A DNA stretch of 61,710 nucleotides from Streptosporangiaceae bacterium (lineage in GTDB: Bacteria; Actinomycetota; Actinomycetes; Streptosporangiales; Streptosporangiaceae). Below, one piece after another: positions 29,932 through 48,745 of the stretch. The translations under genes and the position numbers were made by a program. The DNA is taken from the NCBI GenBank assembly GCA_030041135.1, contig JASHOL010000108.1, positions 1 to 61,710 of the forward strand, read 5' to 3'. Position 1 is the stretch's first letter. Every line of letters starts with the position of its first letter. The notes beneath the pieces were generated by a model. That model did not search any database, was not told the origin of the DNA, and worked only from the letters and a program-made list of their open reading frames with translations.

Positions 29932-31833
29932 ATGCGATTCAGCATCCTCGGACCGTTACTGGCCGAAGCCGACGATGGATCCCCGCTGGCCTTGTCCCGG
30001 CCGTCACAGCGGTCGACGCTAGCCGTCTTGCTCCTGCACGCGGCCCAGCCGGCCACCAAGACCTTACTCATCGAAGCGCTATGGGGGGACAGCCCGCCCG
30101 GCGACGCGGATACCGCCTTGCGGGTGCGGATGCGCGATGTCAGGCGCGCGCTGGCTGGCCACAAGAGCATCGAGACGCACCAGGCGGGCTACCAGATTGC
30201 CGTCAAGCCGGGCGAGCTGGACGCCGATAATTTCCGGGCGATCATCGGACATGGTCGCGCCGCGCTGGACAGCGGCAGCGCCGAAAGCGCCGCACGGCTG
30301 CTCGAGCAGGGCTGCCGGCTTTGGCGGGTTCCGCCGCTGGCGGACGTTCCCGATACACCGCTGATGCACACCATCACGACGGCGCTGCTCGAGCAGTGGC
30401 GCGACGCGCGTGAATGGCTCACCGATGCCCGCATCGCGCTTGGCCAGCATCACGAGATGCTCAGCCAGATCCGTGCCGTCATCGCCGGTGATCCCCTGCC
30501 CGAGCACCGGCACGTGCAGCTCATGCTCGCGCTCTACCGCTGCGGCCAGAAGGCAGCCGCGCTCGATGCCTACAGCCGGCTGCGTAAGCTCACCACGCGC
30601 GAGTTCGGCCAGGAGCCCGGCCCTGAAGCCCGCGAGCTGCTCGCGCAGATCCTCGATGACAGTCCGGCACTGCAGTTCAGGACGCGAGCGCTCGCCGCGA
30701 CCGGCCAGGGTCCACGTCCCGCCTGGACACCACTGTGCCAGCTGCCGGCACCGCCGCCCGACTTCACCGGGCGGGTTGTTGCCATCGAGGCGCTGGCTCG
30801 CCGGATGCCTGCGAGCGAGATGTCGGTGACCGTGGTCACCGGGCCACCAGGCGCCGGTAAGACCGCACTGGCGGTGCAGGCGGCCCACCTTGCCAGCGAA
30901 GCATTCCCCGACGGGCAGCTCTACGTCGCTTTCGGTGGGGGAGCCGAGCTGAGGCAGCCCGCGGACGTCCTCGGCGAAGTGCTCCGTTCGCTCGGTGTCC
31001 CCGCACCCGGCGTTCCCGAAGCGATGGCGGAGCGAGCGGCTCTCTACCGTTCGCTGCTCGCCGGGCGCAGGGTGCTGGTGCTGGCCGACGACGTGATGGC
31101 GGCGGCCCAAGTGCGCCCGCTGTTGCCGGGCTCTCCTGGCTGCGCGGTGCTCGTCACCAGCAGCTCGCGGCTTTCTGACCTGGAAGGCGCGCACGGCATC
31201 GAGGTTGGTCCCATGAGCCAGGACGAGGCCATGACCTTCCTCGGCAAGATCGTCGGGGCAGACCGCCTCGCCGCCGATCCCTCGTCGGCGGCTGCCATCG
31301 CATCCGCCTGCGACGGGCTTCCGCTGGCGATCCGTGTTGCCGGAGCCAGGCTCGCGGCGAGTCCGGTATTGCGTCTGGCCGACCTGGCCAGTCTTCTCTC
31401 GACGCCCGCGGGCCTGCTGGCCGAGCTCGCGATTGGCGACCTTTCCGTGGCGGGCCGTCTGAACGACGCCTGGCAGGCCCTGAACCTCGGGGCGCGCCAT
31501 TCGCTGTGGCTCCTGGCCCAGGGTCGGCTGGCTGTCGTGCCGGGCTGGCTGGCATCGGCAGTGACGGCCAACCCTCACGTGGCCTCGCCCACGCTGACGG
31601 ACTCATGCCTGCTGATGCAGGACGGAGCTTCGGCCAGCTATCAGCTCGCCCCGCTCCTCGAGACGTTCGCGCTCGCGCAGCGGCCGCCGCGCGACGCGGA
31701 CGCATCGAGGGACGCGGACGCATCGCGCGACGCCACGGCCGCGGGGGAGCGCGCCGCGAAGACCGCCGCGCGACCGCGCTTCGCATGGGGCTTTGCCGAC
31801 TACGAGCACGGGGTCGCCGCGGCTGGCGGCTGA
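29932..31833 (+). CDS. SARP/AfsR-like transcriptional regulator with NB-ARC ATPase domain
   Basis: 633 residues. Residues 1-90 form an OmpR-like winged helix (MRFSILGPLLAEADDG, ALWGDSPPGDADTALRVRM). Residues ~95-240 form the bacterial transcriptional activation domain (LIDAR-like HEMLSQIRAVIAGDPLPEH, ALYRCGQKAAALDAYSRLR). From ~275 there is an NB-ARC ATPase with P-loop TGPPGAGKTALAV near 302-314. It lacks the TPR tail of full AfsR. Near the end RDADASRDADASRDA is a short tandem repeat. SARPs bind direct repeats spaced 11 bases and recruit RNA polymerase. The Tad operon starts 221 bases downstream with such repeats in front, so it is a candidate target. Confidence 0.92.
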   Translation: MRFSILGPLLAEADDGSPLALSRPSQRSTLAVLLLHAAQPATKTLLIEALWGDSPPGDADTALRVRMRDVRRALAGHKSIETHQAGYQIAVKPGELDADNFRAIIGHGRAALDSGSAESAARLLEQGCRLWRVPPLADVPDTPLMHTITTALLEQWRDAREWLTDARIALGQHHEMLSQIRAVIAGDPLPEHRHVQLMLALYRCGQKAAALDAYSRLRKLTTREFGQEPGPEARELLAQILDDSPALQFRTRALAATGQGPRPAWTPLCQLPAPPPDFTGRVVAIEALARRMPASEMSVTVVTGPPGAGKTALAVQAAHLASEAFPDGQLYVAFGGGAELRQPADVLGEVLRSLGVPAPGVPEAMAERAALYRSLLAGRRVLVLADDVMAAAQVRPLLPGSPGCAVLVTSSSRLSDLEGAHGIEVGPMSQDEAMTFLGKIVGADRLAADPSSAAAIASACDGLPLAIRVAGARLAASPVLRLADLASLLSTPAGLLAELAIGDLSVAGRLNDAWQALNLGARHSLWLLAQGRLAVVPGWLASAVTANPHVASPTLTDSCLLMQDGASASYQLAPLLETFALAQRPPRDADASRDADASRDATAAGERAAKTAARPRFAWGFADYEHGVAAAGG

Positions 31834-31932: not shown

Positions 31933-31960
31933 GTAACCTGCGCGCTAACGCTTGGCTAAC
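31933..31960 (+). promoter_or_regulatory. Phased TAAC direct repeats, candidate SARP-binding site
   Basis: TAAC occurs at 31934-31937, 31946-31949 and 31957-31960, spaced 12 and 11 bases, and the last two copies extend to GCTAAC. Repeats on one helix face are the usual form of SARP sites. The site lies between the SARP gene and the first Tad-operon gene. The repeat unit is short, so chance cannot be excluded. Confidence 0.4.
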
Positions 31961-32054
31961 AGGCTGCTCACACCGTGCTCCTAGGGTGCAAACCGCTGGC
32001 TCGCATGCGAAAAGCCGCCCACAGTGCCATGCCGGGCCAGTCGGAGCGCGAAGC

Positions 32055-32645
32055 ATGACAACGACTTTCCCGACCTGGCAACGCCCTGCCTGGCGCCTGC
32101 CCGCGTTGCTCTCCGTCGCCGCCTGTCTCCTGCCGCTGCTGGTCGCCTGCACGGCCACGGCTCCGCTCGTACATCTGCCGGCCAAACCCAAACTGCACGC
32201 GGCCAGGGCGGCCGCTGCGACGGTTCAGCGACCACCTTCGGCGCGACAGCAGGTGATTGACGCGTACCTCGGCTACACGACCGCGATGACCGACGCGTTC
32301 AACTCGCGCAGCGTGGCCGAAGTTCGCCATTACCTCGCGCCTTACCTCGATACCGCTACCGTGCGCAACGCGATCCGCGCGTTCACCGAGGCGTGGGCAC
32401 GAGACGAGGTCAGTTACGGCCAGGTCGAGCGGCACATCATCGGCGTCAATATCGAGGGGAAGGCCGCCTGGGTGCACGACTGCGACAACACGAGCGACTC
32501 GGGCCTGGCGTATGCCGGCACTGATCAGATCGTGCCCGGCTCGCTTGGCATCCGCGACGACAACCTGGTGACCAGGCTCAATCTCGTCCATGGTCGCTGG
32601 GTCGTCTACGTGCAGACCGTCGAGGACGTCTCGTGCACGCCGTGA
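32055..32645 (+). CDS. Predicted lipoprotein, first gene of the Tad operon
   Basis: 196 residues. A signal peptide ends in the lipobox LLPLLVAC, so Cys ~35 should be lipidated. The mature part (QVIDAYLGYTTAMTDAFN, SVAEVRHYLAPYLD, GKAAWVHDCDNTSD) resembles small NTF2-like or mycobacterial-type lipoprotein domains. The ATG at 32055 is chosen since the signal peptide begins there. Its end overlaps the start of the next gene by 13 bases, indicating coupling. A periplasmic-face role in pilus assembly is inferred from position only. Confidence 0.8.
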   Translation: MTTTFPTWQRPAWRLPALLSVAACLLPLLVACTATAPLVHLPAKPKLHAARAAAATVQRPPSARQQVIDAYLGYTTAMTDAFNSRSVAEVRHYLAPYLDTATVRNAIRAFTEAWARDEVSYGQVERHIIGVNIEGKAAWVHDCDNTSDSGLAYAGTDQIVPGSLGIRDDNLVTRLNLVHGRWVVYVQTVEDVSCTP

Positions 32646-33517
32646 GGCTGGCGGCCCTCTCCGCCGTTGCGCTGGCCGCGACCGTGCTCTTCTGCGCCGG
32701 GCCGGCGGCCGCCGGCGGGAGCGGTGGGGGCAACGGCGGCGGACAGTGCACGGTCGACATCGGTGGCCAGTGGGTGACCGTCCAGTGCGGCTACGGCGGC
32801 GGAAATGGCGGCGGCCCCGGCGGAGGCGGCGGTGGCGGCGGAGGCACCAAGATCATCACTACCTGCACCTTTATCCCGCTGACCGAAACGGAGGCCAAGA
32901 ACCTGGGCCTGGCCTGGCCGCCACCGAAGGGCTTCAGCTGGGCTCTGATGGACTGCCTGGGCGGCAAGACCGGACCCGGCCCGCAAGCCGCACTGATCAA
33001 CAACGCAACCGGCGCGCCCAGGATCACTCCCCAGCAGCTACTCCAGGAGGCGCTGAGCGAGTTGTACATACCCGCCCTGCGCCCGGACACTGCCCCGCCG
33101 CGCGGTAGGGACGGCTTGGTCGGCCTGCCCGAGTGGTTCTGGGTTCCGGCCGCCGACTGGCACGCGCGCAGCGTGACTGTGAGGGCCGGGCCGGTGTGGG
33201 CGACCGCCACCGCGACCCCGGTGGGCCTGTCGTTCGAGCCCGGTGGGGGCCAGCCCGCCGTGGACTGTCGCGGGCCGGGCACCGCCTATCAGCCGGGCAA
33301 GCCGGCGTCCGGGCAGCACTCGCAGTGCTCCTACGTCTACGACCAGTCCTCGGTCGGCCAGCCGGCCAACGCCTACCAAGCCTCTGTCGTCATCACGTGG
33401 CGCGTGTCCTGGACCGGGTCCGGCGGTGCGGGCGGCGTGCTGAACGGTGGACTGCTCGTTCCGTTCTCATTCGCGTTGCCGGTGGCACAGGGAGAGGCGC
33501 TGGTGAGCAATCCATGA
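32633..33517 (+). CDS. Secreted Gly-rich protein in Tad operon
   Basis: 294 residues from a GTG. There is a clear Sec signal peptide (LAALSAVALAATVLFCAGPAAA), a glycine-rich spacer around residues 29-80 with a run of nine glycines, and then a compact domain with paired Cys, Trp and Pro (LPEWFWVPAADWHARSVTV, then a C-terminal beta-rich part). No known family is recognised. Genes of this kind often accompany actinobacterial Tad loci. The overlap with both neighbours places it in the operon. It could be a minor pilus or surface component. Confidence 0.75.
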   Translation: MHAVRLAALSAVALAATVLFCAGPAAAGGSGGGNGGGQCTVDIGGQWVTVQCGYGGGNGGGPGGGGGGGGGTKIITTCTFIPLTETEAKNLGLAWPPPKGFSWALMDCLGGKTGPGPQAALINNATGAPRITPQQLLQEALSELYIPALRPDTAPPRGRDGLVGLPEWFWVPAADWHARSVTVRAGPVWATATATPVGLSFEPGGGQPAVDCRGPGTAYQPGKPASGQHSQCSYVYDQSSVGQPANAYQASVVITWRVSWTGSGGAGGVLNGGLLVPFSFALPVAQGEALVSNP

Positions 33518-34251
33518 GCAGGCAGCCGCCCGCTTCGATCGGTACGGCTTACTTTCCCGAAGCCGACATCCCCAGCAGCAACGGCCAGGCAGTCGGCCAC
33601 CCGAGTTCTGAAGGACCGGCGGGGAGGCTGCGCGGGCTACCCAGGCGCAGGCGCCCAGCGATGATCGCGCTCGCGGTTGCGATGGCCGGTGCCGGCGTTC
33701 TTGCCAGCGCGGCCGTCTACGAGCGAACCGATCGCCTGGTGCCAGTGGTCGTGGTCACGGCCGGCGTCCCGGCCGGGGCCGTCATCAGCGCCGCCGACAT
33801 CACTACGGCCGATGTTTCTGTACCGTCCGGCGTTCACGTGATCCCCGGCTCGCAGCTCGGACAGGTTGGCGGGCAGACGGCGGCGGTCGCGCTCACGCCC
33901 GGCACGTTGCTCGCCCCGGCCGACCTGACCAGGGCGCAGCCGCCTGGACCGGGTCAGGTGCTGGTCGCTGTCCCGGTCAAGCCGGAGTCGCTGCCTGCCA
34001 GCGGACTAGAGCCCGGCGACCAGGTGCTAGTCGTCGGGACGCCAGGCGACCAGGGGCAGTCGGGTAACTCCGGCCAGGCGGCCCCGCTCCAGTCGCCGGT
34101 GGCCGCCATCGTCGAGGCCGTTAACACAGTGACCGACCAGGACGGGTTCGACGTCGTCGATCTGCTGGTTCCGCCGTCGGCCGGCGTGTCCGTAGCGGCC
34201 CAGGCGTCGACCGGTCAGATCGCGCTCATCGTGACCAAGCGGGGAGGCTAG
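33514..34251 (+). CDS. CpaB/RcpC-like SAF-domain pilus assembly protein
   Basis: 245 residues. A Pro/Arg-rich cytoplasmic N-terminus is followed by a membrane span near 50-68 (AMIALAVAMAGAGVLASAA). A SAF domain follows: VVVTAGVPAGAVISAADITT and GGQTAAVALTPGTLLAPADL. CpaB/RcpC proteins sit at the outer side of the inner membrane in Tad systems. The ATG at 33514 overlaps the previous stop (ATGA); upstream extensions are not supported. Confidence 0.85.
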   Translation: MSRQPPASIGTAYFPEADIPSSNGQAVGHPSSEGPAGRLRGLPRRRRPAMIALAVAMAGAGVLASAAVYERTDRLVPVVVVTAGVPAGAVISAADITTADVSVPSGVHVIPGSQLGQVGGQTAAVALTPGTLLAPADLTRAQPPGPGQVLVAVPVKPESLPASGLEPGDQVLVVGTPGDQGQSGNSGQAAPLQSPVAAIVEAVNTVTDQDGFDVVDLLVPPSAGVSVAAQASTGQIALIVTKRGG

Positions 34252-34253
34252 CC

Positions 34254-35045
34254 GTGGGCTCCGTCTATGCGCTGGTTTCCCCCGGCGGCTCACCCGGCGC
34301 GACGACTGCCGCGCTCGCGCTGGCGCTCGGCTGGCCGGCGCCGGTGATCGTGGCCGAATGCGATCCCGCGGGCGGAGCAGTGCTAGCCGGGGCGCTGGGC
34401 GGACACGAGCCAGCGGCCACCGGCTTGATGGAACACGCCATCGAGGCCGGCCGTAACCCGCAGGCGGCCGCGGCGGGCCTGGTCGCGCGACTGGTACCGC
34501 TAGACACGAGCCGCACGCGCATGGTGCTGCCAGGCCTGAGCGACCCGCGCCAGGCCGTTGGGCTGGTGGCGGCCTGGCCGGCCGTCGCTATGACGCTGGC
34601 AGGGCAGCACTGCGACGTTATCGCCGACTGCGGCCGCCTGGACGCTTCGGACGCGCAGCCGCATGCCGTGCTCGCCGCGGCCAGCACGGTGGCCGTTGTG
34701 CTGCGGCCGACGCTGCGCCAGGTCTGGGCGGCCAGGCCCCGGATCGACATGCTGGGGCAGTTGCTCGGCAGCACCGGCCGGGTAGTCCTGCTGGTCAACG
34801 GTCCTGGCACGCATCCGCCCAGGGAAATCGCGGGGACGCTTGGCGTCCCGGTAGCGGCCGTATTGCCGGCCGACGCCAGATCAGCCGCCGTCCTTTCCGA
34901 CGGCGCACCTCGGCGCAGGCAGTTCGGCTCCGGTCCGCTGATGGCGGCAGCGAAGGGAGCCGGACAGGCGCTGCGCAGGCACGCGGCTGCTCATGCATCC
35001 GCATCGGCGTCCAGCCAGTTCACGGTTATGGGAGCGCAGCGGTGA
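34254..35045 (+). CDS. TadZ/CpaE-like MinD-type protein with degenerate Walker A
   Basis: 263 residues of a ParA/MinD-like Rossmann fold: ALVSPGGSPGATTAALALAL at the N-terminus, AECDPAGGAVLAGALGG as the second signature, then CDVIADCGRLDASD. TadZ/CpaE proteins position the pilus machine at a cell pole. The phosphate loop lacks both Lys residues of KGGxGKTT: the second position is Ala in PGATT. Reduced or absent ATP hydrolysis is likely, as in some TadZ proteins. The GTG start lies two bases after the cpaB-like stop. Confidence 0.8.
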   Translation: MGSVYALVSPGGSPGATTAALALALGWPAPVIVAECDPAGGAVLAGALGGHEPAATGLMEHAIEAGRNPQAAAAGLVARLVPLDTSRTRMVLPGLSDPRQAVGLVAAWPAVAMTLAGQHCDVIADCGRLDASDAQPHAVLAAASTVAVVLRPTLRQVWAARPRIDMLGQLLGSTGRVVLLVNGPGTHPPREIAGTLGVPVAAVLPADARSAAVLSDGAPRRRQFGSGPLMAAAKGAGQALRRHAAAHASASASSQFTVMGAQR

Positions 35046-36619
35046 GCTTGCAGTGGCCGCCCGCGCCGCCTGAGGAACTGGCCGGACAATTGCTCGCGGG
35101 GGCAGCCGCGGCGGCTCCGCAGGACCACGTCGGGCAGCACCCCGGCGCTCCTGCGGGGCCGCAGCCACTGGCGGCCTGGGTGCAGTTGCCCGCCCCGGCC
35201 GACGGGTTGCCCGGGCCGGCCGGCGGGTTGCCCGGGCCGGCCGGCCGGCCGAGCTCGTCGGTGGCCGAGCCAAGCGATCCAGTGGACAGGCTAAGCGCCC
35301 CGGTGGGCGGACTGAGCGATCCACGGCTGATCGATGGGGTCGGCGAGATCACCTCGATGCTGGCGGCGCGGCTAGATGATGGCGCGGCCACGGCCGAGGT
35401 GATGCCGGTCATCAGGGAGATGGCCCGCCGGTGGCTGGAGGGCCAGGTCAGGTCCGGCGTCCTGCCGGCCTCGGCCGGGGGCCAGCTCGACACACTGGCC
35501 AGCGCCGTGCACGACCGGCGATACGGTCTCGGGCCACTGTCGGCTTACCTGCGCGACCCGCAGGTCGAGAACGTCGACGTTAACGGGTGCGATCAGGTGT
35601 GGGTGACCTACGCCAGCGGCGAGCGGGTCGCTGGTCCCCCCGTAGCAGCCAGCGATGACGCGCTGATCTCGATGATCCGCACCTGGGCCACTCGTGGCGG
35701 GCAGACGGCCCGCGACTTCTCCGCCGCCGCGCCGCTCGTGAACGTCGCGCTGACCGGCAGCGCGCGCATGACGGCCACGATGTCGGTCACGCCCCGGCCA
35801 TGCGTGTCACTGCGGCGGCATGGGCAGATCGACATCACCCTCGAGCGGCTGGTGCAGCTGGGCAGCATCGACCCCACCCTGGCCGCGTTCCTGTCAGCCG
35901 CCGTTCGCGGCCGGTGCAACATCATCGTCACCGGTGGCGTCAACGCGGGCAAGACCACGCTCTTGCGCGCGCTGGCCAGCGAAATCTCGCCTGGCGAGCG
36001 GGTGGCGACGCTGGAGTCGGAGTACGAGCTGTACCTGCATGAGCTCGGCCAGCACCCGGACGTGATCGCGTTCGAGGCGCGCGAGCCGAACTCCGAGGGC
36101 GTGGGCGCAATAACCCTGCACGACCTGATCGCGCACGCGCTGCGGCACAACCCCCGGCGCATCCTGGTTGGTGAGGTCCGGCGCAGCGAGATCATGCCGA
36201 TGCTGGAGGCGATGAACTCCGGCCAGGACGGCTCGATGTGCACGCTGCACGCGAACTCGCCGGCCGAGGCGTTCGACCGCATCCTCATCCTTGGGCTCCG
36301 TGGCGGCCTTGCCCTGGCCGAGCGTGCCATTCACATCCTGGTCGGGATGGCGGTGGACCTGATCGTGCATATCCGGCGCGGTTACGACGGCTCCCGCACG
36401 GTCAGGTTCGTGTCAGAGGTCCTCGAGGTCATGCCGCCCGGAGACACCGAGCGGCCGTCGGTAAACCGGTTGTTCCTGCCGGATCCGAGCACGGGCCGGG
36501 CCCGCCCGGCCCACACGCCGTCGCCCGCCATGCTCGGCAAGCTCGCTGCGGCCGGGTTCAACGCGAGCATGCTCGACGAGCGCCAGGTGCAGCTGCAGCC
36601 GGGGAGCTGGTCCCGGTGA
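35042..36619 (+). CDS. tadA: TadA/CpaF secretion ATPase
   Basis: 525 residues. A low-complexity N-terminus of ~100 residues includes PAGGLPGPAGRP repeats. It is followed by the CpaF N-domain (GPLSAYLRDPQVENVDVNG) and a RecA-like motor: Walker A VTGGVNAGKTTLLRAL near 297, ESEYELYLHE, Walker B RILVGEVRRSE near 373, and the His box CTLHANSPAEAFDR. It powers Flp pilus assembly from the cytoplasm as a hexamer. The GTG overlaps the TadZ stop, and its own stop overlaps the tadB start (GTGA). Confidence 0.96.
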   Translation: MSLQWPPAPPEELAGQLLAGAAAAAPQDHVGQHPGAPAGPQPLAAWVQLPAPADGLPGPAGGLPGPAGRPSSSVAEPSDPVDRLSAPVGGLSDPRLIDGVGEITSMLAARLDDGAATAEVMPVIREMARRWLEGQVRSGVLPASAGGQLDTLASAVHDRRYGLGPLSAYLRDPQVENVDVNGCDQVWVTYASGERVAGPPVAASDDALISMIRTWATRGGQTARDFSAAAPLVNVALTGSARMTATMSVTPRPCVSLRRHGQIDITLERLVQLGSIDPTLAAFLSAAVRGRCNIIVTGGVNAGKTTLLRALASEISPGERVATLESEYELYLHELGQHPDVIAFEAREPNSEGVGAITLHDLIAHALRHNPRRILVGEVRRSEIMPMLEAMNSGQDGSMCTLHANSPAEAFDRILILGLRGGLALAERAIHILVGMAVDLIVHIRRGYDGSRTVRFVSEVLEVMPPGDTERPSVNRLFLPDPSTGRARPAHTPSPAMLGKLAAAGFNASMLDERQVQLQPGSWSR

Positions 36620-37470
36620 TCACGCTGGCCGGAGCGGCCGGCGGACTCATCGTGATCGGCGTGATCCTGCTCGTCAGGGAGCTCACCAGGCGAGCCCTGG
36701 CTCCACGTGCCGGGCGTCGGTCGCCGCGGCGGCTGAGCCGGGACCGGCTCAGGCAGATCCTGATTGCCGGCGGGGTGGGCCTCATCACGCTGGCCATCAC
36801 CCGGTGGCCGGTTGCCATGATCGCGGCAGCCGCGGCAGTGCTGTTCGTGCCCCATATCACCTCGACCAGGGCCGCGCGCGAGCGGGCCGCCGTCCTGGAG
36901 GGGCTTGAGCAGTGGACCCGGCGGCTGTCGGACATGCTGACCGCGAGCCGGGGTCTGGAAGACGCGCTTGAGGCCTCGGTGCGCTCGGCACCGAAGGCGA
37001 TCGAGCCCGCCGTCGTGCGCCTTGGCCGCCGGCTATCTGCCCGCACCGGCACCGAGGCGGCGCTGCGGACGTTCGCCGAGGACATCAACGATCCGGCCGC
37101 GGACCGGATCGCGGCCGCGCTGATCATCGCGACCGGCCGTCGCGGCGGCGGAGTGCGGGACGTGCTCAATCCGCTCGCTGCGATGCTCGCCAGGGATGTG
37201 GCCGCGCGCCGGGAAATCGAGGCCGAGCGCGCCCAGCACAGGACCACCGTGAAGTGGCTGACCTGGTTCGTGGCCGGATTCACGGTGTTCGCCGTGCTAA
37301 ACCGCTCTTACTCGGCGCCGTACGGTACGCCGGGCGGGCAGCTGGTACTCGCGCTCGTGGTCCTGCTGTACACCGGGGGGCTGTGGTGGCTGCACCACCT
37401 CGGCACGGTGCCCGTCGCCGGCCGGTTCCTGGAGGGGTCGGCAGAGCCAGGGAGCCGGGTGCGGCAATGA
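36616..37470 (+). CDS. tadB: TadB-like pilus platform protein (type II secretion F domain)
   Basis: 284 residues. A hydrophobic N-terminus with about three membrane segments up to residue ~77 is followed by the cytoplasmic T2SF domain (LEQWTRRLSDMLTASRGLED, ALIIATGRRGGGVRDVLNPL) and a C-terminal pair of spans (WLTWFVAGFTVFAVLN, LVLALVVLLYTGGLWWL). TadB and TadC form the inner-membrane platform that TadA drives. The GTG start is dictated by overlap with the tadA stop. Confidence 0.92.
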   Translation: MITLAGAAGGLIVIGVILLVRELTRRALAPRAGRRSPRRLSRDRLRQILIAGGVGLITLAITRWPVAMIAAAAAVLFVPHITSTRAARERAAVLEGLEQWTRRLSDMLTASRGLEDALEASVRSAPKAIEPAVVRLGRRLSARTGTEAALRTFAEDINDPAADRIAAALIIATGRRGGGVRDVLNPLAAMLARDVAARREIEAERAQHRTTVKWLTWFVAGFTVFAVLNRSYSAPYGTPGGQLVLALVVLLYTGGLWWLHHLGTVPVAGRFLEGSAEPGSRVRQ

Positions 37471-38339
37471 ACCTGTGGGTGATCTTGGCCGGGCTGCTCT
37501 GCGGGCTCGGTGCCTGGCTGGCCGTTCGCGAATTGGTGCCGTCGGGGCCCAGCTTGCAGGCCGCCGTCGAGCGGCTCGGCGCCGACCGTGCGATCGATGG
37601 GCCTCCAGGCGAACGGCAAGGCCTGCGCGAACTCGCGCGCAGCGTGCGAACGGCAGTCCCCTGGCTTCCGGTGCCCGCGGCCGACCTGCGGCTACTGGGC
37701 CAGGAGAGTGACGGGTGGCTCGCGAGCAAGCTCGCGTTTGGGCTGGCTGGCCTGGCCCTGGTTCCGGTCGTGGCTGCCCTGTACGCGCTTGCGGGCCGTA
37801 ACCTGCCGTGGACAATCCCGGTCGCGGGCTCGCTGGCGGTGGGCGCCGCGATGTTCTTTGTCCCCGACCTCGTCACCCGCGTCAACGCCGCCGAGAAGCG
37901 CCGCGACTTCCGGAACGCACTCACGAGCTACCTGGACCTGGTGGCGCTCGAGCGCGGGGCCGGTGCCGCGCCAACGGAGGCGCTCGAAGCCGCCGCACGG
38001 GTCGGCGGCGGGTGGGCCTTCGAGCGGATAGCCTCGGCCCTCGACGAGGCCCGCAAGGCGACAAGGCCACCGTGGGAAGCGCTCTCGCGCCTTGCCGGCG
38101 AGACCGGCGTTCAAGAGCTTGCCGACCTCGCCGAGATAGCCGCGATTGCCGGGAACGATGGTGCCCGGATTCTCGACACCCTGGGCGCACGGGCTGAGTC
38201 CATGCGGGCTGAAGCGCTGGCCGCGACGAAAGCGCAGGCCGGAGCGCGCAGCACGACCATGGTGCTGCCGATCGCGATGCTGGCAGGCGGCTTCCTGGTC
38301 CTTCTCATTTACCCCGACTTTTACCGGCTCTTCGGATGA
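37467..38339 (+). CDS. tadC: TadC-like pilus platform protein (type II secretion F domain)
   Basis: 290 residues. It has an N-terminal span (MNLWVILAGLLCGLGAWLAV), two spans near 91-131, a T2SF domain (ALTSYLDLVALERGAGAAP, ALSRLAGETGVQELADLAE) and a final span with GGFLVLLIYPDFYRLF. It partners TadB in the pilus platform. The ATG overlaps the tadB stop (ATGA). Confidence 0.93.
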   Translation: MNLWVILAGLLCGLGAWLAVRELVPSGPSLQAAVERLGADRAIDGPPGERQGLRELARSVRTAVPWLPVPAADLRLLGQESDGWLASKLAFGLAGLALVPVVAALYALAGRNLPWTIPVAGSLAVGAAMFFVPDLVTRVNAAEKRRDFRNALTSYLDLVALERGAGAAPTEALEAAARVGGGWAFERIASALDEARKATRPPWEALSRLAGETGVQELADLAEIAAIAGNDGARILDTLGARAESMRAEALAATKAQAGARSTTMVLPIAMLAGGFLVLLIYPDFYRLFG

Positions 38340-38373
38340 GGAGTACCGGCCGACACGTGAAAGGCAGGCAGCC

Positions 38374-38577
38374 ATGCCATCCTTCGTCCTGCACTACCTG
38401 GTTACCGGGATCCGCGCCCGCCTGGCAGCGGTCCGATCCGGGAACCTCGACCGGGGCGCCCTCAGCCTGGAGTGGGTGGCGATCGCCATCGGTCTTGTGG
38501 CCGCGGCCGTCGCGGTGGGTGCGTTCATGCTGACGAAGCTGCACAGCATGGAAGGCAACATCGGCAACGGCAAATGA
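38374..38577 (+). CDS. Flp-like pilin
   Basis: 67 residues. A 25-residue basic leader ends in DRGALSLEW, directly followed by a hydrophobic helix (VAIAIGLVAAAVAVGAFML). Cleavage after Gly, with Glu at mature position 5, is the class III prepilin pattern. The mature pilin would be about 37 residues, normal for Flp. AGGCAGG precedes the ATG. It lies between tadC and three pseudopilin genes and should be the major pilus subunit. Confidence 0.8.
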   Translation: MPSFVLHYLVTGIRARLAAVRSGNLDRGALSLEWVAIAIGLVAAAVAVGAFMLTKLHSMEGNIGNGK

Positions 38578-39023
38578 CCTGGCCCCCGCCGCGCCGCATC
38601 GCGCCGCCGCCACGTGGCATCACGCCGCCACGTGGCATCGCACCGACGCCCCGAGGTACGGAGCGGGGCGCGCTGAGCCTCAGCTATGCCGTGATCCTGC
38701 CGATCGTGCTGTTGTTCATCATGCTCGTGATCCAAGCGTCGTTCTGGTTCCTGGCCAGGGAGGCGGCGCTCGCCGCCGCCCGGCAGGGCGCCGACGCGGC
38801 CAGGGTGCTCGGCGGGTCTCCTGAAGCCGGGAGGGCCGCCGCGCTGGCCTTCGCCCGGCACTCGGGCGCCGGTTACCTGCTTGACCCTGGGGTGAGCACG
38901 GGGGGCAGCACAGCGTCCACGGTGGCTGTCACTGTGACCGGCCGGGTCCCTTCATTCGTGCCTGGTCTGGTCGTGGACGTGTCGGAGACGGCCCAGGCGC
39001 CGGTAGAGGAGTTCCAGCCATGA
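38574..39023 (+). CDS. TadE-like pseudopilin
   Basis: 149 residues. A Pro/Arg-rich leader with repeated PPRGI units comes before RGALSLSYAVILPIVLLFIM, a prepilin-like site and hydrophobic helix. A small external domain rich in Ala and Val follows. The Glu usual at +5 is Ser here. TadE proteins are minor pilins processed by the prepilin peptidase. ATGA overlap with the pilin stop and the next start shows coupling. Confidence 0.82.
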   Translation: MTWPPPRRIAPPPRGITPPRGIAPTPRGTERGALSLSYAVILPIVLLFIMLVIQASFWFLAREAALAAARQGADAARVLGGSPEAGRAAALAFARHSGAGYLLDPGVSTGGSTASTVAVTVTGRVPSFVPGLVVDVSETAQAPVEEFQP

Positions 39024-39463
39024 CGGATCGTCTCAGGAGAGGCCTGCGCTCGGACGCGGGCAACGCGGCACTTGAACTCGTCGTGCTCGCGCCGGTGCTG
39101 CTGGCCATTCTCGGCCTGGTTATCGCGGCCGGCCGTACCTCCGTCGCACGGGGCGCGGTGGAAGCCGCCGCCAGGGACGCGGCGCGGCAGGCGTCGATCG
39201 CACTGAACCCGGCGGCCGCAGAGGCGGCAGGCCAGGCCAGTGCGCAGGCCGCGCTGCGCGAGGACGGCCTTGACTGCGATCCCTCGGTCAACATCGACAC
39301 CGAGGGTTTCACGGCTGCCCAACCTGGCCAGCCCACCCTGCCGGTGGTCGCGACCGTGACCTGCACCGTGCCGTTGGCCAACCTCTACCTGCCAGGTCTG
39401 CCGGGCGTGCTCACGCTGCGGGCGTCCTTCTCCAGCCCGCTCGATCTGTACCGGGCAAGGTGA
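39020..39463 (+). CDS. TadE/TadF-like pseudopilin
   Basis: 147 residues: leader MTDRLRRGLRSDAGNAALELV, in which Glu follows a GNAAL site, then a membrane helix (LAPVLLAILGLVIAAGR), then an external domain with GAVEAAARDAARQASIA, the standard TadE segment, and a Cys pair. It is the best canonical TadE of the three. It overlaps its upstream neighbour by four bases. Confidence 0.88.
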   Translation: MTDRLRRGLRSDAGNAALELVVLAPVLLAILGLVIAAGRTSVARGAVEAAARDAARQASIALNPAAAEAAGQASAQAALREDGLDCDPSVNIDTEGFTAAQPGQPTLPVVATVTCTVPLANLYLPGLPGVLTLRASFSSPLDLYRAR

Positions 39464-39557
39464 ACCGACGATGGACTGTCACTCCGCTGTCACACCACTA
39501 GGGACACTGTGTGGCCTGAGCGGGCGGCTGCGTGCACGCGGGCGGGACGGAAGGCCG

Positions 39558-40007
39558 ATGAGACAAGCCCGGCACGCCTGGATGGGCGGCGGCGAGGACA
39601 GCGACCGGGGCGCGCTGTCCCTGATGATCGTCGCCCTCTTCGTCGCTTTCATCGCGCTGGCCGGGATCGTGGTGGATGGCGGGGCCAAGCTCGACGCCGA
39701 TGAGAACGCCTACGCGTTGGCTCAGGAGGCCGCGCGGGCAGGCGCGACCTCCGTGGATACGTCGACCGCGTACCGGTCCGGCTCCTTCGTCGTGAATCCG
39801 GAGCAGGCACAGGAGGCTGCGGCCAGCTACCTTGCTATGGCCGGCCAGCACAACTTCAGCGTGCGCGCCATCGGCAGCCGCGAGATCTCGGTCAGCGTGA
39901 CGATCACCGAGCCCACCACGTTCCTGGCGATTATCGGCATTGGCCACTTCACCTGCACGGGCACGGCAACCGCGACGCTGGTGACCGGAGTGGCGGGAGG
40001 AACGTGA
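39558..40007 (+). CDS. TadG-like pilus protein
   Basis: 149 residues from the ATG after GGAAGG. It has a short leader, then DRGALSLMIVALFVAFIALA (prepilin-like site and helix), then VVDGGAKLDADENAYALAQE, the Tad_N/TadG signature, and an external domain. It lacks the long von Willebrand part of full TadG. An ATG at 39471 would add 29 residues of doubtful quality. Its stop touches the start of the LysM-SARP gene. Confidence 0.82.
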   Translation: MRQARHAWMGGGEDSDRGALSLMIVALFVAFIALAGIVVDGGAKLDADENAYALAQEAARAGATSVDTSTAYRSGSFVVNPEQAQEAAASYLAMAGQHNFSVRAIGSREISVSVTITEPTTFLAIIGIGHFTCTGTATATLVTGVAGGT

Positions 40008-43000
40008 TGAGCCGCGCACGGTCCCGGCTCACCGGGCTCATGGCCATGGCCGCGCTGGTCGCGGTCACCGTCGGCCTGCCCATGGTGCTCTATCACTTCG
40101 GCGGCTCGCCTTTGCCACATCGAGTCGCGAACTGGCATCGCGTGCTCACGGTGCTGACCAGCCAGGACAACGGGACCGTGTTGCTGAGCATCGTCCGCGA
40201 TGTCTCGTGGCTAGCGTGGCTGGTCTTCGCTATCGCGGTGCTGGCCGAGGTGCAAGCCGCAATGCGTGGCCGCGCCGCGCCGCGGCTGCGACTCGGCGGC
40301 ATCCAGGGCGGCGCCGCGCGGCTAGTAGCGCTGGCAGCGCTTGCGTTCACGGCGCCGCCGGCCCTGACGCTGACAGCGTCTGCCGCGACGGTCCCGGTGG
40401 CGCACCAGCTCGTCGCGGCAACCACCGCAGACCCGACCGGTGCGCCACTAGCGGCTCCCATCTCGCCAGCCGGGAACCTGGACAGCGCGGCAGCCAGCCG
40501 GATCGTCACGGTCCGCTGGGGAGACTGCCTGTGGAGCATCGCCCAGGACTATCTCGGGGCGGGCGACCTATACCCGGAGATTTTCAACATGAACTATGGC
40601 CACGACATGGGAGACGGGCAGGTATTCAGCAACCCCTCCCTGATCCAGCCCGGCTGGCGGCTCTTGCTGCCCGATGTCGCCGGCCATGATGACGTGAGCC
40701 GCGGCGCCGCGGGCCCGGCCCGTCACATCGGTCACGCGACGCATGACCCGCACTTTCGTCGCCAGCACCCGGCTGCCGGGCTGCGCGCGGCCACCAGCCA
40801 GCACAGTGCCGCCAGCCAGCACAGTGCCGCCAGCCAGCAGGGCGCCGCGACCCAGCACGATACGGTCGGCCAGCACGGGGCGACGAACTTTGACGTGCCG
40901 CGGCAGGGCGCCACCGGTGGCACCTACCAGACCTCGGCCGACGTCGCCGCATCGACGGGCGATCATCTCCCGGCTGCCGCCGTGTTCGGCGCCGGAGCCC
41001 TCGCGGGCGCCGTCCTCACCAGCCTCGGCCGGCTCCGCCGCCGTCAGCGGCAGTACCGGCGGCGGGGCCGGCGTATCGCGCTGCCAGCCGATGCCAAAGT
41101 GCTCGCGACCGAGCAGCGATTGCGCGCCGCCGCGCCCGTGGATACACCATCGACCCTCCACGATGCGCTGAACCTCCTCGAGGCGGGCATCACCGGGGCC
41201 GGGCTCGTGCTGCCCGACATCGTCGGGCTGCACGTGACGCCGAGCGCACTCGAAGTGCTGCTCGCGGCCCCCGCTCTTGACTCGCCGCCACCGCCGTACA
41301 GCATCAGCCCGGGCAGGCAGGGGATGTGCTGGCAGCTGCCACTCGCTGGCGACGGCGGCCTGACCGGTCCCGGCGCCTGGCCAGAGTCGGGCGGACCGGC
41401 CTGGCGTGGCAGCGGACTGCTGCCTGGCCTGTTCACCGCGGGGGCGACCGACGACGGCTACCTGCTGCTTGATCTGGAGTCGCTGCAGGTCACCGGCTGC
41501 GACGGTCCACCCGAACTCGTCGACCAGGTGATTGCTGCCATTGCGACCGAGCTCGCGACCGGCCAGTGGAGTGGCTGGTATGACCTTGTTCTTGTCGGCT
41601 TCGACGAGCTGGAAGTGCTAGGCCGCGCGGAGCACTGCGCGACCGTCGACGCGGCCGTCAGCCACCTGGAGATGCGATGCCTGGCGCTGAGCCGGCGACT
41701 GGGCGAAGACGCGTCATCCGACGTGCGGGAGCTGCGGCTGGCGGCACCTGACGACGAGGACTGGGGTCTGACGATCCTGGTCAGCCGGACCGAGCCACAG
41801 CCAGATGAGATGGCGCGCCTGCTTGAGCTGGCCGAGGACGGTCCCGGCGGCGTCGCCGCGCTGGTTGCCGGTGATCCAGAGACCCCTGATGGCCGGATGT
41901 CGCCGACCGTGCTTCAGCTCGCGCCCGACCCTGAGCAGCCAGAACTGATCCTGGCGAACATCATCCCGCTGCAGATCATCGTCAGGCCCCAGATGTTGTC
42001 TGACGCGGATTACCAGGCAATCGGCACGCTGTTTGCGACCGCAGCCGACCTCGAAGACGTCAGCCCGCTGCATGCGCCGTACGAGATTTACGGCGCGCCG
42101 CCGTGGATCCCTCAGGCAGCGGCGATGCAGTCACAGCTGCGCAGCGAGTCTTCATCCGCCAGTGTTCTCATGAAGGAGCGAGGGTACGGAGGCGATGAGC
42201 CTGGCGAGGACGAGGAAGACCAGGCAGACACCGAATACGCGGGCAGCGGCGATTATCTCGGGCGCCACAATTACGAGGAGCCCGCCTGGCACGATGCTGG
42301 CGAGTTCGCCAGGCCCCAGTGGCCCATGCCCGGGCAGGACGACGCGGGTCAGGACAGACCAGACGCGCATCTGGGGGTCCTGCCAGGAGCCGAGTGGCAG
42401 GCGAACAGTGCGCTCGTCCCCGATGCCGATGGGAACTCCACACCCGCCGACGGAGTGTCGGCCCGACCGTGGGCGGCGACAGCCGGCGGGCCGGACTCCG
42501 AACGGCAGGCAGCGCCACGGCTGGAAGTCAAGATCCTCGGCCCGTTCGCCGTCACGGGCGCGGCTGGTCAATTGCAACCCAAGCAGGCCGAGCTGGTACT
42601 GGCACTCGCGCTTGCGGCACCGGGCGGTCTCACGAACTCCGCACTGTGCTGCATGCTCGGAGCCGACGCCGACCATCCGAAGCCGTCCGACGCCGTGCGG
42701 CAGATCATTACCAGAACCAGGCGCCGACTCGGAACGGCTAGCGACGGCCAGGAGTACATCATTCACACCGGTAACGGCAATTACGTGCTGCACCAGGAGG
42801 TGTCGCTGGACTGGACCGAGTTCCGCGACCTGGTCGCCACATCCAGCGCCGACGACATGCGCTCCGCGCTGTCCATGGTGCGTGGCCAGCCGTTTACCGG
42901 CAGCTACCACTGGTGGATCGACATACCCCTGCTGGAGACGGTAAGGGCCGAGATTGTCGATGCCGCCGAGACGCTGGCTGAGTACGAACTTGCCACCGGC

Positions 43001-43249
43001 GCCGCGCGGGCGGCGGCTCGGGCAGCGCGAGCCGGACTTGCGGCCGAGGCCGCGGCCGAGCAACTGTGGCGGCTCCTCATGCGCGCCGAGCACGCGACCG
43101 GAAACTTCGGCGGCGTGGCCGAGGCCTGGCGCCGATGCCTGGATGCGATCGAGGACATCGCTCCCGGAGGCGAGCCGCACCCGGATACGGAGGCCCTGTA
43201 CCGGCAGCTGACGACGGCTACCAGGCAGCAGGCGCCGGCCCGCGGCTGA
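40007..43249 (+). CDS. Transmembrane protein with external LysM domain and cytoplasmic SARP-type DNA-binding/BTAD module
   Basis: 1080 residues. Predicted order: TM1 ~11-30, TM2 ~66-86, an Arg-rich inside loop, TM3 ~104-125, an external LysM domain ~165-223 (VRWGDCLWSIAQDYLGAGD), a Gln/Ala/Ser repeat linker (SQHSAASQHSAASQQ), and TM4 ~323-342 followed by the strongly basic RLRRRQRQYRRRGRR. Next come ~480 cytoplasmic residues of unknown fold. At ~838-930 there is an OmpR-like winged helix (LEVKILGPFAVTG, PSDAVRQIITRTRRRLG), and at ~935-1075 a BTAD (LDWTEFRDLVATSS). The positive-inside rule puts LysM outside and the SARP module inside. Related LysM-BTAD proteins occur with other actinobacterial Tad loci; their role is inferred. 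The ATG is chosen for its spacing to GGGAGG. Confidence 0.85.
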   Translation: MSRARSRLTGLMAMAALVAVTVGLPMVLYHFGGSPLPHRVANWHRVLTVLTSQDNGTVLLSIVRDVSWLAWLVFAIAVLAEVQAAMRGRAAPRLRLGGIQGGAARLVALAALAFTAPPALTLTASAATVPVAHQLVAATTADPTGAPLAAPISPAGNLDSAAASRIVTVRWGDCLWSIAQDYLGAGDLYPEIFNMNYGHDMGDGQVFSNPSLIQPGWRLLLPDVAGHDDVSRGAAGPARHIGHATHDPHFRRQHPAAGLRAATSQHSAASQHSAASQQGAATQHDTVGQHGATNFDVPRQGATGGTYQTSADVAASTGDHLPAAAVFGAGALAGAVLTSLGRLRRRQRQYRRRGRRIALPADAKVLATEQRLRAAAPVDTPSTLHDALNLLEAGITGAGLVLPDIVGLHVTPSALEVLLAAPALDSPPPPYSISPGRQGMCWQLPLAGDGGLTGPGAWPESGGPAWRGSGLLPGLFTAGATDDGYLLLDLESLQVTGCDGPPELVDQVIAAIATELATGQWSGWYDLVLVGFDELEVLGRAEHCATVDAAVSHLEMRCLALSRRLGEDASSDVRELRLAAPDDEDWGLTILVSRTEPQPDEMARLLELAEDGPGGVAALVAGDPETPDGRMSPTVLQLAPDPEQPELILANIIPLQIIVRPQMLSDADYQAIGTLFATAADLEDVSPLHAPYEIYGAPPWIPQAAAMQSQLRSESSSASVLMKERGYGGDEPGEDEEDQADTEYAGSGDYLGRHNYEEPAWHDAGEFARPQWPMPGQDDAGQDRPDAHLGVLPGAEWQANSALVPDADGNSTPADGVSARPWAATAGGPDSERQAAPRLEVKILGPFAVTGAAGQLQPKQAELVLALALAAPGGLTNSALCCMLGADADHPKPSDAVRQIITRTRRRLGTASDGQEYIIHTGNGNYVLHQEVSLDWTEFRDLVATSSADDMRSALSMVRGQPFTGSYHWWIDIPLLETVRAEIVDAAETLAEYELATGAARAAARAARAGLAAEAAAEQLWRLLMRAEHATGNFGGVAEAWRRCLDAIEDIAPGGEPHPDTEALYRQLTTATRQQAPARG

Positions 43250-47561: not shown

Positions 47562-47743
47562 TTATCGTGACGGCACAATTAAGCCCGGTTGGTGAGCGGA
47601 GTAGCGCCAGAACCGTAAGCCAACGGCTCCGCTCGGCGCCCGGCCGCGACTTAGGTCACATTGGTCCTGCGACGGACGGCGTTCGGGCCCGCGTGGATCG
47701 CGCCATACTGGGTAGCGGGCCATTTCGGGCAGAGGACGAAGTG

Positions 47744-48745
47744 ATGGGGCTGCGGTCGGGCGTCGCGATTGATCTCGGGACGGTGAACACGCTTGTGTAC
47801 GTCACCGGCCGCGGCATCGTCATCGACGAGCCGTCGGCGATAGGTATCGACCGTAGTACGGGCGCGATAACCGCCGTCGGTCAGGCCGCGGACTCGCTTA
47901 CCGGTAAGGAGACCCAGCATGTCGAGGTTCTCCACCCGCTCCGCGATGGGGTAATCGCCGATCTTAATGCGACTGCGGCCATGATCCAGGCGTTCCTAGC
48001 CCGGGCTAAGGTCGGGCGCGGGTTTGGCCGCAAGCAGTGCGTGATCTGCCTGCCCGGCGAGGCGACGACGGTCGAGCGGCAGTCCGTACTGGCTGCCGCG
48101 GAGGCGCTGCGACCCAGGCGCAGCATTCAGCTTGTCGACGAGCCGGTCGCGGCCGCTGCCGGAGCCGGATTCGACCTTGAAGCCGGCGTCGGCGCATTCC
48201 TCGTTGACATCGGCGGCGGCACCACCGAAATCGCCGTGATGGCGGGCGGTCACGTGGTGCGGGCCCGTTCCCTTCGAACCGGAGGGAACGCGATGGATGA
48301 GGCGATCATGCGCGCGGTGAGGTCCGAATTCGGGCTGCTGCTAGGCCGGGATGCCGCGCGCGCCCTCAAAATGACGCTCGGTCTCGGGGACGGAACCATC
48401 TCGGACGTAGAGACCGTGGGCGTCGACGCGGCCCGCCGGACGCCGCGCGTCGAACGCATATCGGCTGCGCTGGTTGCCGCGGCGGTCGAGCCCACCGTGC
48501 GCGCAATAGTCGGCTCAGTTACCGAGCTGCTGGCCGACATTCCGCCGAATCTCGCCGAAGACGTGTTCCGCGGAAAGATCAGGCTAGCGGGCGGCGGCGC
48601 CCTGCTGCCCGGCCTGGCATACCGGATCGAGGCCGAGGCGGACATCGCGACGATGGTTGTCGATGATCCGCTGCGGTGCGTGATCAGGGGTGCGGCTTAC
48701 ATCCTGGAGCACGGTTACGAGCTTCCAGGCAGCGGCGCCGCCTGA
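47744..48745 (+). CDS. MreB/Mbl-like actin-family protein
   Basis: 333 residues, near full MreB length. Actin-fold signatures: phosphate 1 VAIDLGTVNTLVYV, PLRDGVIADLNATAAMIQAF (MreB-type), phosphate 2 FLVDIGGGTTEIAVMAGG, and adenosine loop LAGGGALLPGLAYRIE. It lacks an obvious N-terminal amphipathic helix. MreB organises cell-wall synthesis or, in actinomycetes, spore walls. mreC, mreD and rodA are not next to it. ATG chosen after AGAGGACGA; the GTG one codon earlier is equivalent. Confidence 0.92.
   Translation: MGLRSGVAIDLGTVNTLVYVTGRGIVIDEPSAIGIDRSTGAITAVGQAADSLTGKETQHVEVLHPLRDGVIADLNATAAMIQAFLARAKVGRGFGRKQCVICLPGEATTVERQSVLAAAEALRPRRSIQLVDEPVAAAAGAGFDLEAGVGAFLVDIGGGTTEIAVMAGGHVVRARSLRTGGNAMDEAIMRAVRSEFGLLLGRDAARALKMTLGLGDGTISDVETVGVDAARRTPRVERISAALVAAAVEPTVRAIVGSVTELLADIPPNLAEDVFRGKIRLAGGGALLPGLAYRIEAEADIATMVVDDPLRCVIRGAAYILEHGYELPGSGAA

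Follow-up and report, generated by a model that had tools for sequence, protein, structure and literature searches.

The window analysed here is the whole stretch of 61,710 nucleotides from a Streptosporangiaceae bacterium (contig JASHOL010000108.1, assembly GCA_030041135.1), and all the features described below lie on its forward strand (+). It carries a Tad/Flp operon (32055..40007) that starts with a lipoprotein gene (32055-32645), whose comparison rests on a nucleotide match (82% over 727 bp) and on positions, and a gene for a secreted Gly-rich protein (32633-33517). These are followed by genes for RcpC/CpaB (to 34251), a TadZ-position protein (34254-35045), TadA (35042-36619), TadB and TadC (to 37470 and 38339), a Flp-like pilin (38374-38577), two TadE-type proteins (to 39023; 39020-39463), and a TadG-like protein (39471-40007). 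The operon runs without a break from the lipoprotein gene at 32055 to its last gene, which occupies 40007..43249 (ATG at 40007, stop at 43247-43249) and whose ATG overlaps the TGA of the upstream TadG-like ORF (TGATG). The location inside a pilus operon that had been proposed for this gene is thus borne out, both by the Tad genes directly upstream and by the Tad linkage seen in most relatives. On the other side of the operon, an AfsR-like SARP-NB-ARC regulator gene (29932..31833) lies directly upstream of a set of short direct repeats, which we describe further below.

The product of the last gene (1080 residues), which we call the LysM-SARP protein, shows three transmembrane spans, a LysM domain, a fourth span, a predicted FtsK/EccC-like pseudo-ATPase domain, a linker, a winged helix, and a BTAD domain. 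A chance ORF or a misassembly is ruled out by full-length homologues in many genera, and the architecture itself is not a product of chance, because over 30 homologues, about 24-80% identical, have the same layout.

The first three spans (residues 10-28, 62-80, and 106-124; 40034..40378) were located from hydropathy and are conserved in homologues. The fourth (residues 323-341), located from hydropathy and positive-inside counts, is followed by a strongly basic stop-transfer stretch (residues 343-355; both within 40973..41071). All four have mean Kyte-Doolittle hydropathies of 1.7-2.2, and K/R-rich flanks occur at residues 1-9, 83-103, and 343-372. Between spans 3 and 4 lies the LysM domain (residues 168-222; 40508..40672), which in the window protein alone scores 13.8 bits with the Pfam LysM model, against a cut-off of 20.9 bits. 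The segment matches NF008399 at 1.6e-5, and 13 of 34 homologues match Pfam LysM at E<=0.01 (best E 3e-14). The LysM columns are strongly conserved in the family alignment, with the core kept in nearly all members; the homologues L127 and L130 show no detectable LysM.

The LysM domain is predicted to be outside the cell and the SARP module inside, because lysine and arginine residues within 15 positions of the spans are in excess at the predicted inside ends in 33 of 33 homologues, i.e., all those counted with an N-terminus present (means 15.3 vs 3.4). In no homologue counted do these values place both the LysM domain and the SARP module on one side of the membrane, in agreement with the original prediction. 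The layout which that prediction had described, with four spans, the LysM domain between spans 3 and 4, the basic stretch after span 4, and a C-terminal winged helix plus BTAD, likewise stands up to hydropathy, domain profiles, the predicted model, and comparison with homologues.

The cytoplasmic middle of about 480 residues had been left unassigned, which no longer holds, as we can assign residues 352-715 (41060..42151) to a P-loop fold of the FtsK/EccC type. The predicted model of this region has a mean pLDDT of 83, and its best Foldseek matches are FtsK and EccC, with VIA-align scores of Z 15.3 against FtsK 6t8b_C (3.5 Å, 227 residues aligned) and Z 13.8 against EccC 4nh0_B. The identification comes from the fold search only; a profile search of the PDB with this region returned no meaningful match, and neither Pfam nor NCBIfam gave any. 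The membrane spans followed by a P-loop domain of this fold recall FtsK/SpoIIIE and the EccC proteins of type VII secretion. Unlike them, the window family has no Walker A motif: GxxxxGK[ST] is absent from every homologue aligned, and the equivalent loop reads, for example, VTGCDGPPELVDQ. Judged by its residues, the middle domain is a pseudo-ATPase on a predicted FtsK/EccC-type fold. A low-complexity, poorly conserved linker (residues 716-835; 42152..42511) joins it to the C-terminus.

The C-terminus consists of a winged helix of the OmpR/SARP type (residues 838-930; 42518..42796) and a BTAD domain (residues 935-1075; 42809..43231). Pfam detects BTAD above its cut-off at residues 945-1068 and does not match the winged helix, which was recognized from the family profile and the predicted model. 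A family profile was needed here because phmmer with the single C-terminus found no match in the PDB. With the profile, both the winged helix and the BTAD domain are covered in EmbR 2fez (2.7e-12) and in AfsR (9.5e-8), and there are weak matches to CadC 5ju7 and TcpP 9gdr. The predicted model (mean pLDDT 96.1) superposes on AfsR 8k60 (Z 16.5, 4.9 Å, 229 residues aligned) and on EmbR 2fez (Z 15.9), whereas unrelated structures score only about Z 10; the BTAD part resembles TPR folds. The C-terminus is, by profile and predicted fold, a SARP module, as was expected from its winged helix and BTAD.

The recognition helix of this module (residues 894-908, SDAVRQIITRTRRRL; 42686..42730) can be compared with that of AfsR, whose DNA contacts include R87, T88, S91, R92, R94, and K95 (PMC10936776). 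The equivalents in the window protein are R898, Q899, T902, R903, R905, and R906, so that the four basic contacts (R87, R92, R94, and K95 in AfsR) are all retained and no DNA-contacting residue of this kind has been lost, which was the point on which the proposed DNA-binding function had been made to depend. Nine genus-level and paralogous sequences, with identities down to 43%, all have R898, Q899, R903, R905, and R906 unchanged; W74 of AfsR is not kept in the window protein. A large sub-clade of distant homologues, to which the window protein does not belong, has VRDATIARVADWLG or a similar recognition helix of near-zero net charge. There, R87 and K95 of AfsR are replaced by acidic or neutral residues and the equivalent of R92 is usually kept, with few other basic contacts, which suggests that DNA contact in this sub-clade may be weaker or different. 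The rows L002, L005, and L007 for canonical SARPs were excluded from this comparison.

Whole-genome searches detected relatives of the LysM-SARP protein in 38 of the 60 related genomes, and a search using only the middle domain detected them in 23 of 246 genomes drawn from across the phylum; the close relatives come mostly from uncultured Streptosporangiaceae. The order three spans, LysM, one span, middle domain, winged helix, and BTAD is shared by nearly all full-length homologues, and in most the gene directly follows rcpC-tadZ-tadA-tadB-tadC-tadE-tadE-tadG. On named plasmids of Nonomuraea, Micrococcus luteus, Cutibacterium modestum, and Streptomyces anulatus, it lies just after the Tad genes or a few genes downstream, annotated as 'BTAD domain-containing putative transcriptional regulator' or 'LysM peptidoglycan-binding domain-containing protein'. 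Some copies, a minority, are orphans with no Tad genes nearby, and all the orphan-bearing genomes tested encode TadA relatives elsewhere. The LysM-SARP protein is therefore a member of a conserved, widespread actinobacterial family whose gene is usually the last of a Tad/Flp operon. The survey of Tad loci suggested in the original prediction does find that the fusion recurs: it is not a one-off, and the family is widespread and already carries automatic LysM or BTAD annotations.

One member, PAGK_2369 of the C. acnes plasmid pIMPLE, was tabulated in 2013 with Pfam LysM and BTAD matches, without being discussed (PMC3666418, Table 2). Like the window protein, it combines LysM and BTAD, and it comes after the TadE genes in a Tad locus of this kind (PMC3666418). 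It was labelled 'TadB', although TadB is a different membrane protein family. Among open-licence PMC papers we found no functional description of the family, which is apparently unstudied.

The repeats upstream of the Tad operon (31944..31973) are three tandem 11-bp direct repeats, GCTAACGCTTG-GCTAACAGGCT-GCTCACAC, with the cores GCTAAC/GCTAAC/GCTCAC, and a -10 element, TAGGGT (31982..31987), starts exactly 8 bp after the third 8-mer repeat. This geometry fits the published rule for SARP sites, in which direct repeats follow each other at a spacing of 11 or 22 bp and the last one lies 8 bp from the -10 (PMC10936776). The window contains a single exact copy of the full motif; two further matches with three mismatches correspond to this copy read one repeat out of register (0.05 expected). 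The copies are 6-7 bp long, short enough for a general repeat search to miss, and the triple-repeat box at the Tad promoter is newly described here.

Within the genus, the box recurs at Tad promoters and before an orphan paralogue. In the window's own genome, GCTAACN5GCTAACN5GCTMAC (<=2 mismatches) has only two matches. One is the Tad promoter; the other lies on contig C122, about 220 bp ahead of the N-terminal end of an orphan paralogue, and this contig contains no Tad genes and no other SARP. In nine genomes of the genus, GCTMACN5GCTMACN5GCTMAC (one mismatch) gives 14 matches vs 0 for the reversed control, and 11 of the 13 distinct sites are at promoters of Tad operons or of an orphan paralogue. 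A TANNNT -10 follows at exactly 8 bp in eight of those sites and at 9 bp in one, and two genomes (G004 and G007) have their Tad genes split into two units, with one box each. Outside the genus, no comparable box was seen upstream of Tad operons, apart from the weak case L135 and L055, a distant orphan homologue from another family whose start is immediately preceded by four 11-bp repeats of GGTCAA (reached by 0 of 2000 shuffles). A general 11-bp repeat box at Tad operons beyond the genus was not found; a lag of 11 is not enriched there over control lags.

The likeliest reading, which we consider moderately probable, is that the LysM-SARP protein is a membrane-anchored SARP putatively regulating its own pilus operon. 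To the computed elements of this reading, i.e., the architecture, the predicted fold, the predicted topology, and the box, we add DNA binding, activation, and a signal as inferred ones. The four spans would hold the protein in the cytoplasmic membrane and the LysM domain in the cell wall, while the predicted pseudo-ATPase domain would join the membrane part to the C-terminal SARP module inside the cell. The target of the SARP module is most likely the set of three 11-bp repeats upstream of the Tad -10, from where the module may recruit RNA polymerase as AfsR does, so that the last gene of the operon would feed back on the operon. The LysM and pseudo-ATPase domains probably read out the condition of the wall or that of the assembled Tad machine, the particular signal being speculative. 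We also hypothesize, tentatively and with more doubt than confidence, a machine-embedded transcription factor across Actinomycetota, i.e., a SARP that is physically part of the Tad machine and whose activation of its own triple-repeat promoter is set by wall contact through LysM and by the state of the machine through the pseudo-FtsK domain.

An alternative that we consider somewhat unlikely is that the box belongs to the NB-ARC SARP (29932-31833), and that the membrane protein has other DNA targets or modulates the NB-ARC SARP, e.g., by hetero-dimerizing on the repeats. Indeed, the gene of this canonical AfsR relative adjoins the box in the window, in L039, in L166, and in several of L174-L180, as in most of the genus. 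Nevertheless, the NB-ARC SARP has Asp in place of R92, a base-contacting arginine of AfsR, in the window and in three relatives, and in G001 its identity falls to 45% and its recognition helix differs, whereas the box sequence is kept. Moreover, the boxes of C122 and L055 have no NB-ARC SARP neighbour, and the recognition helix of the membrane protein is invariant across the same genus. The Asp, the divergent helix in G001, and the neighbour-free boxes favour, short of proof, the membrane protein as the binder of the box.

Sensing of peptidoglycan by a one-component regulator, as the original prediction had it, with a free muropeptide or a wall glycan bound by LysM as the signal, appears unlikely. 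The external LysM domain, with its core conserved in nearly all members, is consistent with such a role, but a LysM in an envelope-spanning pilus operon may simply be an anchor, and it escapes detection in L127 and L130. Least likely is a purely structural or assembly part in the Gram-positive Tad machine, in which LysM would be a peptidoglycan anchor, the pseudo-ATPase would dock on TadA/TadZ, and the SARP module would be a protein-protein scaffold no longer acting on DNA: the nearly constant position as last Tad operon gene, an FtsK/EccC fold typical of secretion machines, the TPR-like BTAD, and the neutral recognition helix of a large sub-clade point that way, but the window's lineage retains the basic DNA contacts intact and without variation, a SARP-type box is present at the operon promoter and before the orphan paralogue, and orphan copies exist away from Tad genes.

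The membrane-anchored SARP that we favour differs from the regulators it recalls. It shares with AfsR, EmbR, DnrI, and ActII-ORF4 a winged helix followed by BTAD, with the same fold and basic DNA contacts, and the 11-bp direct repeats 8 bp from the -10 at the Tad operon promoter. In contrast to these known SARPs, which are soluble with an N-terminal module, it is a polytopic membrane protein with LysM and FtsK-like domains and has the module at its C-terminal end; it is not a classical SARP, because the module comes C-terminal to four spans. ToxR, CadC, and TcpP are also membrane proteins with an OmpR-type winged helix inside and a sensor-like domain outside. Unlike them, the window protein is actinobacterial and has four spans instead of one, a C-terminal DNA-binding part with BTAD, and LysM outside. 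The likeness to ToxR/CadC that had been proposed can be retained as an analogy in the way the protein may work, whereas membership in that family is contradicted by the opposite domain order and the four spans.

In actinomycetes, antibiotic clusters are activated mainly by SARPs, which are known as soluble proteins. A branch of them anchored in the membrane with a wall-binding domain, if true, would be a new regulatory layout. Tad pili of actinobacteria serve in adhesion and, in Micrococcus luteus, in DNA uptake, and those of Cutibacterium are plasmid-borne; to our knowledge, their control is poorly understood. For this control, our analysis names a candidate regulator and pinpoints a promoter site.

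An AfsR-like SARP-NB-ARC regulator gene (window 29932-31833) lies directly 5' of the Tad promoter box, the direct repeats upstream of the Tad operon, and this arrangement is kept in most of the genus. The window regulator carries Asp at the position of R92, the base-contacting arginine in the AfsR recognition helix. Four 11-bp GCTAAC/ACTAAC repeats also occur at locus L181 (1501-1540, contig G006:C198), where Tad genes do not adjoin them.

Within the operon, a small ORF (window 38374-38577; MPSFVLHY...RGALSLEWVAIAIGLVAAAVAVGAFML...) has a prepilin-type motif and is likely a Flp pilin. About 4 kb 3' of the operon, the ORF at window 47567-48745 looks like an MreB-type actin when its sequence is judged by eye.

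No LysM was detectable in the L127 and L130 homologues of the LysM-SARP protein, the product of the last Tad operon gene; these homologues end their Tad operons and retain the N-terminal membrane region, the middle and the SARP module. At L083 (7726-13859), the LysM-SARP protein gene is present as two tandem copies, 3' of a single Tad operon.
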